DNA of 35,147 bases from Betaproteobacteria bacterium RIFCSPLOWO2_02_64_14 (lineage in GTDB: Bacteria; Pseudomonadota; Gammaproteobacteria; Burkholderiales; SG8-41), in NCBI GenBank assembly GCA_001770325.1, contig MEQT01000292.1:1-35147 (forward strand), given 5' to 3'. The notes below the pieces were generated by a model, which saw only the letters and a program-made list of their open reading frames with translations, did no database searches and was not told the origin of the DNA. Shown here piece by piece: positions 8,057 through 8,870 of this stretch (within the stretch, counting starts at the first letter, position 1; each line of letters starts with the position of its first letter). The position numbers and the translations under genes were made by a program.

Positions 8057-8515
8057 TCAAGCAACTGGCTCCAGATAGATCGTCGCTTCCAGCTTGACCA
8101 GCCTGCGGGCAAGCTCGATTCCCAGCCGGCGCCAGAGTTCGGGGCAGTGGGCTGCGATCTCCGTGAATTTCTGCCCGGATATCTGTGCCACCACGACGGT
8201 GTCAATTGCATCGACTGTCGCCGACCGCCCCTTGAACGGCTCCAACAGGGCGATTTCTCCCGTGTGCATTCCCGCGCCAACGGTTGAAACCTCGATTTCA
8301 CCCAAGCGCACGGAAACCTGCCCGGCGAGTATCAAGTACACGTCGGTACCCCGATCTCCTCGAGCGAAAAGACGCGCGCCGGGGGCGAATTCCCTGAGCT
8401 GCGCTGCCGAGGCGATCTTGTCGGCGACGTCCGTATTTCCGTCAACCAGGAACTGGCTGCGCAGCGCGTTCAGGAGCGCGGCACGTCCATCTCTACCCTG
8501 AAATCGTTCCAACAT
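8057..8515 (-). CDS. Stand-alone cyclic nucleotide-binding domain protein
   Basis: A 152-residue protein made almost entirely of one CAP/PKA-type cyclic nucleotide-binding domain (about residues 28-125), with no DNA-binding or catalytic domain after it. The beta-roll is seen as REFAPGARLFARGDRGTDVYLILAGQVSVRLG. The phosphate-binding cassette GEIALLEPFKGRSA (86-99) keeps the Gly-Glu and Arg-Ser residues expected for binding cAMP or cGMP. The ATG at 8515 follows AGGAGG with eight bases between. A cyclic-di-GMP-I riboswitch and terminator lie 126 bases upstream on the same strand, so expression should respond to c-di-GMP. The partner is unknown. Confidence 0.85.
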   Translation of the reverse strand: MLERFQGRDGRAALLNALRSQFLVDGNTDVADKIASAAQLREFAPGARLFARGDRGTDVYLILAGQVSVRLGEIEVSTVGAGMHTGEIALLEPFKGRSATVDAIDTVVVAQISGQKFTEIAAHCPELWRRLGIELARRLVKLEATIYLEPVA

Positions 8516-8571
8516 GGCCTATGTCCTCCTGCGGGGCAATCCCGCGACCGTGGTTCACCAGGGACACTCGA

Positions 8572-8596
8572 CCGAGAAAGCAACGCGCTTTCTCGG
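8572..8596 (-). other. Perfect hairpin in the leader of the cyclic nucleotide-binding gene
   Basis: CCGAGAAAGC and GCTTTCTCGG form a perfect 10-bp stem around a five-base loop, between the riboswitch terminator and the start codon. No T-run follows on the minus strand, so it is probably not an intrinsic terminator. It may stabilise or process the leader RNA. Confidence 0.5.
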
Positions 8597-8640
8597 AGGG
8601 GAGAAAGCCAGTTGGACTACGAGAGCGATCGTCGGGCGGC

Positions 8641-8770
8641 AAAAAAAGATTACCGGCAGCCCCACTACCCGCCCTCGGCAATCCCTCGGTCATGGAGCGC
8701 GGTGCTCTGTAGACCAGTGACTTTGCGTCCCCGCCTTTCGGTCGGGTTTGCCCTTTTCGAAGTTGAGGAG
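8641..8770 (-). ncRNA. Cyclic-di-GMP-I (GEMM) riboswitch with terminator platform
   Basis: On the minus strand the leader carries the conserved GEMM blocks in order: AAGGGCAAACC, a P2 stem capped by the GAAA tetraloop (CCGACCGAAAGGCGGG), GGACGCAAAG, GGTCTA, a small hairpin, GACCGAGGGATTGCCGA. The CCTC at the 5' end can pair with GAGG at the 3' end to close P1. The second G of AGGGC, which is A in cGAMP-selective variants, is G here, so c-di-GMP is the expected ligand. The platform follows directly: GATTGCCG (8683-8676), part of the aptamer 3' strand, can instead pair with CGGTAATC (8655-8648), which is followed by seven T (8647-8641). Aptamer and terminator are therefore exclusive, predicting an ON switch. 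The gene controlled is the cyclic nucleotide-binding protein at 8057-8515. Confidence 0.9.
8648..8683 (-). terminator. Intrinsic terminator of the riboswitch expression platform
   Basis: Minus-strand GATTGCCG pairs with CGGTAATC (8 bp with one G-T), with a smaller GTAG/CTGC stem inside the loop, and an uninterrupted T7 run follows at 8647-8641. The left strand overlaps the riboswitch P1 region, so it should form only when the aptamer is unbound. This is inferred from base pairing by eye. Confidence 0.7.
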
Positions 8771-8807
8771 AATCGCACGCAGGCGATTTCTCACTCGGCT
8801 TTCACGA

Positions 8808-8870
8808 TATCCCCAACGGTGCCAATAATACTATGCCATTTATCACAAATCGATCATTTTCTAGAGGAAG
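8808..8870 (-). promoter_or_regulatory. AT-rich probable promoter region of the riboswitch transcript
   Basis: This is a markedly AT-rich patch in otherwise GC-rich DNA. On the minus strand it reads TTTGTGATAAATGGCATAGTATTATTGG and contains -10-like hexamers (TAGTAT, TATTAT), just upstream of the riboswitch. I could not fix a convincing -35 with standard spacing, so only the region is proposed. Confidence 0.4.

Follow-up and report, generated by a model that had tools for sequence, protein, structure and literature searches.

In Geobacter metallireducens, a cGAMP-sensing GEMM riboswitch at pilM leads pilus genes and acts as an ON switch in which the strand that stabilises the aptamer is reused in the terminator (PMC9262584). 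The Bc1 GEMM-I riboswitch of Bacillus thuringiensis has a long expression platform with two terminators placed 28 bp apart, and c-di-GMP unfolded the first of these while expression was unchanged (PMC11218506). On the protein side, PycTIR (PDB 8jsk/8jsj) is the cUMP-activated effector of a Pycsar anti-phage system; its N-terminal extension mediates oligomerisation, and N143 specifies cUMP (PMC11224242).

Here we describe a c-di-GMP-I aptamer and a terminator hairpin that lie ahead of a gene whose product, a stand-alone protein, is related to the PycTIR sensor. The locus lies in the DNA shown above, the whole of which (35,147 nucleotides of contig MEQT01000292.1 from Betaproteobacteria bacterium RIFCSPLOWO2_02_64_14) we refer to as the window. 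Our preferred reading, to which we give a probability of roughly 0.77, is that the leader of 8057-8515(-) contains an ON-type transcriptional riboswitch; the ON direction follows from the fact that terminator and aptamer share one strand and so exclude each other. From 5' to 3' on the minus strand, the elements are:

8832-8846, minus strand: conserved upstream box GTGATAAATGGCATA (consensus TCGTGACAAATGNCATAC), aligned in the leader copies; candidate promoter or regulator site
8765-8796, minus strand: upstream hairpin P0, GAGTGAGAAATCGCCTGCGTGCGATTCTCCTC, with 12 pairs, 4 of them changed on both sides, and 90% of cells paired
8674-8762, minus strand: c-di-GMP-I (GEMM-I) aptamer, from the RF01051 match
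8673-8762, minus strand: P1, with arms CUUCG (8762-8758) and CGAGG (8677-8673); 5 pairs read from the sequence, invariant in 9/9 copies
8676-8687, minus strand: switching strand GAGGGATTGCCG, contributing to the P3 base, the ligand site and P1 when the aptamer is folded, and also the terminator 5' arm, from the pair table
8644-8655, minus strand: terminator 3' arm CGGTAATCTTTT, with its core at 8655-8648, from the pair table and the copies
8641-8647, minus strand: T7 tract of the intrinsic terminator, from the sequence
8587-8608, minus strand: second conserved hairpin, GCTTTCTC-CCCTCC-GAGAAAGC, with 8 pairs, formed in 93% of cells across the 9 copies
8525-8530, minus strand: Shine-Dalgarno sequence AGGAGG, 9 nt from the ATG
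8057-8515, minus strand: gene proposed to be controlled, encoding a stand-alone protein of 152 aa with a cyclic-nucleotide-binding domain like that of the PycTIR sensor, from PF00027, PADLOC and PDB matches

A covariance-model search of the window matched RF01051 over the entire model (positions 1-87 of 87) at 8762-8674(-), with E=3.1e-11 and a score of 67.1 bits, where the gathering cut-off is 35 bits. RF01051 is the sole Rfam family in the window at the gathering threshold, and a chance match is ruled out by the E-value together with shuffles. This confirms a full-length c-di-GMP-I (GEMM-I) aptamer at 8674-8762(-), the class named by the initial annotation, which had suggested an RF01051 search and RNA folding as checks; each of the GEMM blocks it had quoted is found on the minus strand in the order claimed, both in the sequence and in the covariance model. 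The 5' end of the aptamer is at 8762, and the limit of 8770 that had been given reaches into the end of the upstream hairpin. The covariance-model pairs place P2 at 8746-8740 with 8735-8730, capped by a GAAA tetraloop, and the base of a long P3 at 8722-8719 with 8683-8680; a non-standard G-A pair within P3 at 8715/8686 is present in sister copies too. The genome itself carries three RF01051 copies.

Just past the aptamer, CGGTAATC (8655-8648) pairs with GATTGCCG (8683-8676) to form a core stem of 8 bp that includes one G-U, and the T7 tract comes next at 8647-8641; the complementarity between the aptamer 3' strand and a downstream stretch followed by T7, claimed from inspection of the sequence, is thus present. 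The arms of the full hairpin are GAGGGAUUGCCG (8687-8676) and CGGUAAUCUUUU (8655-8644). In the aptamer, the same 8687-8676 holds the 3' side of the P3 base, the first part of the P1 3' strand and two cytosines that would be those of the ligand site. Because these twelve positions are used by the P3 base, the ligand-facing CC and P1, the aptamer and the terminator hairpin are mutually exclusive, and the pair table bears out the exclusivity that had been proposed for ligand-bound P1 and the terminator. Folding of the region likewise gave two exclusive folds separated by 3.7 kcal/mol (forced folds of 8763-8641: aptamer -39.2, terminator -42.9 kcal/mol), with the terminator favoured without ligand, and both features support the proposed ON direction. 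When folded as a growing chain, the terminator wins only after its 3' arm has emerged, first at about 8647, and GEMM ligand binding of the usual strength could bridge the energy gap.

When the downstream stretch was shuffled, an 8-bp stem on the aptamer 3' strand with a tract of 6 or more T in 8 behind it proved rare, appearing 14 times in 100,000 mononucleotide shuffles and 11 times in 20,000 dinucleotide shuffles. The T7 run is unremarkable by itself (2 such runs in the window, 0.76 expected), and the fold of 8641-8770 is not more stable than those of shuffles (z -0.56), a value that says little either way about two competing folds.

According to the preferred reading, at low c-di-GMP the GAGGGAUUGCCG strand would leave the aptamer and pair with CGGUAAUCUUUU, and transcription would end at the U tract near 8641. 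With c-di-GMP bound, the same strand would be held in P3 and P1 and the terminator blocked, such that polymerase would continue into 8057-8515(-) and more of the protein with the cyclic-nucleotide-binding domain (CNBD) would be made. High c-di-GMP would in this way yield more of a second cyclic-nucleotide receptor. About 20 GGDEF matches are found in the genome, and so c-di-GMP is presumably produced by the host.

Nine copies of the leader are present across the five genomes of the genus, some of which are named Betaproteobacteria MAGs from groundwater and from RIFCSPLOWO2 samples. This count, like the gene neighbourhoods, is approximate where contigs of G003 end inside the repeat with swapped flanks, every relative being a draft assembly split over many contigs. 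The aptamer core does not vary among the nine copies, and identity between the window copy and its sisters is 93-94% in the aptamer, 77-80% in the post-aptamer stretch and 75-76% in coding sequence. The terminator hairpin has 12/12 pairs in eight of the nine copies and 11/12 in the remaining one, so that 99% of its cells are paired in the nine-copy alignment; the whole tested three-helix structure is 94% paired, as opposed to 41-57% after sliding by 1-3 columns. The variable pairs of the terminator hairpin show one-sided changes only, and no double compensatory changes were found in it in the nine-copy alignment. A clean T7 is kept in two copies only, that of the window and that of its close relative G003:C119, the counterpart leader in another species of the genus. 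In the other copies the tail has sequences such as TCTCTCTCGTG, TCTCCAGCG and TCTCCTTTTG and a T-tail score between 1.4 and 2.4, compared with 4.7 for T7, and the paralogous CNBD locus is among these seven. Given that 7/9 copies are without a clean U tract, the hairpin may serve some shared purpose other than intrinsic termination; in most copies it is either a weak terminator or has another mode of action. The terminator reading is therefore firm for the window copy and less so for the sister copies, where the hairpin persists without a conserved U tract. We also note that G003:C119 and C130 (the end of L109 and the start of L113) end within the leader repeat with exchanged flanks, C26-type upstream with C292-type downstream and the reverse; this is probably an assembly break at the repeat, and possibly recombination.

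The next sense ORF after the terminator is 8057-8515(-), and the stretch of about 125 nt between the T tract and its ATG contains conserved hairpins, which a simple terminator switch would not require. A small hairpin, GCGGG-AUUGC-CCCGC, stands immediately 5' of AGGAGG, a good Shine-Dalgarno sequence. Two candidate roles for this part of the leader, sequestration of the Shine-Dalgarno sequence and a second pairing against the aptamer, both failed to hold consistently across the copies. We observed that GGCTTTCTCCCC, at 8598-8611(-) past the terminator, is complementary to the aptamer core GGGGACGCAAAGTC; it was rejected as a second anti-aptamer, few shuffles matching it in the window and in the G000 ankyrin copy and the pairing being unremarkable in several other copies. 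Likewise, a nine-base repeat, GGGATTGCC, near the Shine-Dalgarno sequence was set aside as a decoy for the aptamer strand, being short and inexact in sister copies. At the other end of the leader, the box GTGAYA-N5-CATA is common to nearly all compared leader copies, the pilin copy included, and matches once in the window where 0.01 matches are expected; judged from sequence, it is probably a promoter or regulator site. We rejected it as a sigma-70 promoter, the -35/-10 spacing being poor by eye and a promoter scan of the minus strand having found none.

We have considered whether the conserved hairpin might be chiefly an anti-aptamer, with control exerted further downstream through translation (access to the Shine-Dalgarno sequence) or Rho, and termination a local addition in the window copy. 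That most copies keep the hairpin but lose the U tract would fit such an arrangement, as would the conservation of the later hairpin and the pairing of the Shine-Dalgarno sequence with the invariant GAGTGTCCC in the folds of three sister CNBD leaders (mean probability 0.75-0.89). In the window copy, however, this sequestration is absent (mean probability 0.0), and the folds, which are unreliable for whole leaders of 300 nt, predict no link from ligand state to the Shine-Dalgarno sequence; on balance we think downstream control unlikely at this locus. An OFF switch, with ligand promoting termination via a different pairing, has precedent among GEMM-I riboswitches with terminators, for example Cd1 (PMC9262584). 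Here, though, the sole good 5' arm for a terminator is the aptamer's own 3' strand, so terminator and aptamer cannot coexist, and a search for a separate anti-terminator found none, which makes OFF control very improbable. It is harder still to believe that the sequence is a recognisable yet inactive remnant, in view of the invariant core in nine copies and the aptamer's greater identity to its sisters than that of the coding sequence.

The identity of the ligand turns on positions 8753-8751, which read GGG and are identical across 9/9 copies. We take these to include the equivalent of Vc2 G20, and each candidate base is G whichever register is chosen. cGAMP-type aptamers carry A at this position, and G is the c-di-GMP form. 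Because all the possible positions are G, c-di-GMP rather than cGAMP is the ligand to be expected from the sequence. Aptamers for cGAMP were originally annotated as c-di-GMP aptamers, they can be of the ON type, as at pilM, and the Vc2 G20 position is a selectivity factor that tunes but does not dictate ligand choice (PMC9262584); nevertheless, with an invariant G where the cGAMP type has A, there is only a slim chance that the ligand is 3',3'-cGAMP. We thus retain an ON-type terminator switch responding to c-di-GMP as the preferred reading.

The gene that this switch would control had gone unmentioned: the initial annotation reported only antisense ORFs, which is correct for the aptamer itself but overlooks the sense-strand gene at 8057-8515(-). 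Its product has a single cyclic-nucleotide-binding domain in 152 residues (PF00027, E=1.8e-13), and sequence comparison places it nearest, among described proteins, to the sensor domain of PycTIR, an anti-phage effector. The PADLOC PycTIR profile (PDLC02371) matches residues 1-141 with E=5.4e-41, over profile positions 1-140 of 288 only, and PycTIR 8jsk matches residues 1-141 without gaps (E=2.3e-22); the match to CRP is much weaker (4.7e-12). The PycTIR-type N-terminal extension is present (M1, R4, F5), the pocket residues G86, E87, R97 and R138 are retained and the phosphate pocket is conserved, and the protein may be predicted to bind a cyclic mononucleotide. Residue 143 is E in the window protein, Q in the genus relatives and N in a TIR-bearing homologue from G425, a genome of another family of the class. 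The 152-aa protein has no TIR domain, and across the five genomes of the genus the PycTIR-like matches all stop short of the TIR half. In a sample of 369 genomes, the sole match to the window protein at E <= 1e-20 beyond its own genome is L062:1015-2052(-), a complete PycTIR-like protein with a CNBD and a PF10137 TIR domain, from another family of the class. A Pycsar operon was sought and rejected: matches to the PycC profile are scattered on unrelated contigs, and the profile also matches E. coli and other controls, so that these matches seem to be class III cyclases and CNBD proteins at large and provide no Pycsar evidence.

The riboswitch recurs together with a relative of the CNBD gene in G001, G002, G004 and G000:C256. 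Elsewhere the leader stands before an ankyrin-repeat gene (G000:C26, G003:C130) or a type IV pilin gene (G003:C312). An additional copy of the CNBD gene in G002 lies after a GspE/PilB-like ATPase gene, and G008 carries a copy in a genome with no RF01051 match. The third CNBD gene of G002 contains an N run between duplicated stretches (L068:1375-1386), an assembly scar. In the wider family, RF01051 aptamers precede genes read from their translations, not from a profile search, as encoding a PAS-like protein, response regulators, small helix-turn-helix-like proteins and pilins, and the sequence downstream of the aptamer differs in each. Two genus genomes also contain RF03167 (c-di-GMP-I-GGC) aptamers, at L065:489-567(+) and L066:1189-1262(+), in which AAAGCCACACC replaces the usual AGGGCAAACC and a T run lies close downstream; L067:2212-2287(-) has the same look, yet is reported as RF01051.

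Set against known systems, the aptamer shares with the RF01051 class the full-length match, all core blocks, the GAAA tetraloop of P2 and the G at the specificity position, but it has the G-A pair in P3 and sits in a long conserved leader with upstream and later hairpins. Like Bc1, the leader combines a c-di-GMP-I aptamer with an intrinsic terminator and a long stretch before the gene; unlike Bc1, it has only one hairpin with a U tract. By analogy, the behaviour of Bc1 would count against a simple ON-terminator reading. The likeness to pilM lies in the aptamer 3' strand doubling as a terminator arm, which makes the folds exclusive, whereas the switch described here has c-di-GMP as its predicted ligand and stands before a gene for a cyclic-nucleotide-binding protein. 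The riboswitch class and the switch logic are already known, and what the locus adds is a clear, testable ON-type GEMM-I riboswitch with a short, readable terminator; the pairing with this gene is the interesting part. In the literature, as far as our partial coverage extends, we found no paper that names a c-di-GMP riboswitch together with a cyclic nucleotide-binding domain.

We tentatively suggest, as a possibility we think less probable than not, that the riboswitch sets the dose of a stand-alone Pycsar-type receptor and so links c-di-GMP to a cyclic-mononucleotide pathway, that the receptor family is the PycTIR sensor serving outside defence (or the ancestral pool that gave rise to PycTIR), and that one leader copied before CNBD, ankyrin and pilin genes has given rise to a regulon. 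If c-di-GMP does set the amount of receptor, two second messengers would intersect through the supply of a receptor. The window protein resembles PycTIR in aligning without gaps over residues 1-141 and in sharing the N-terminal extension and the pocket residues, and it differs in being without a TIR domain and in having E143 in place of N143. It thus corresponds to the sensing part of such an effector with the killing part missing, and may bear on the origin of Pycsar sensors.
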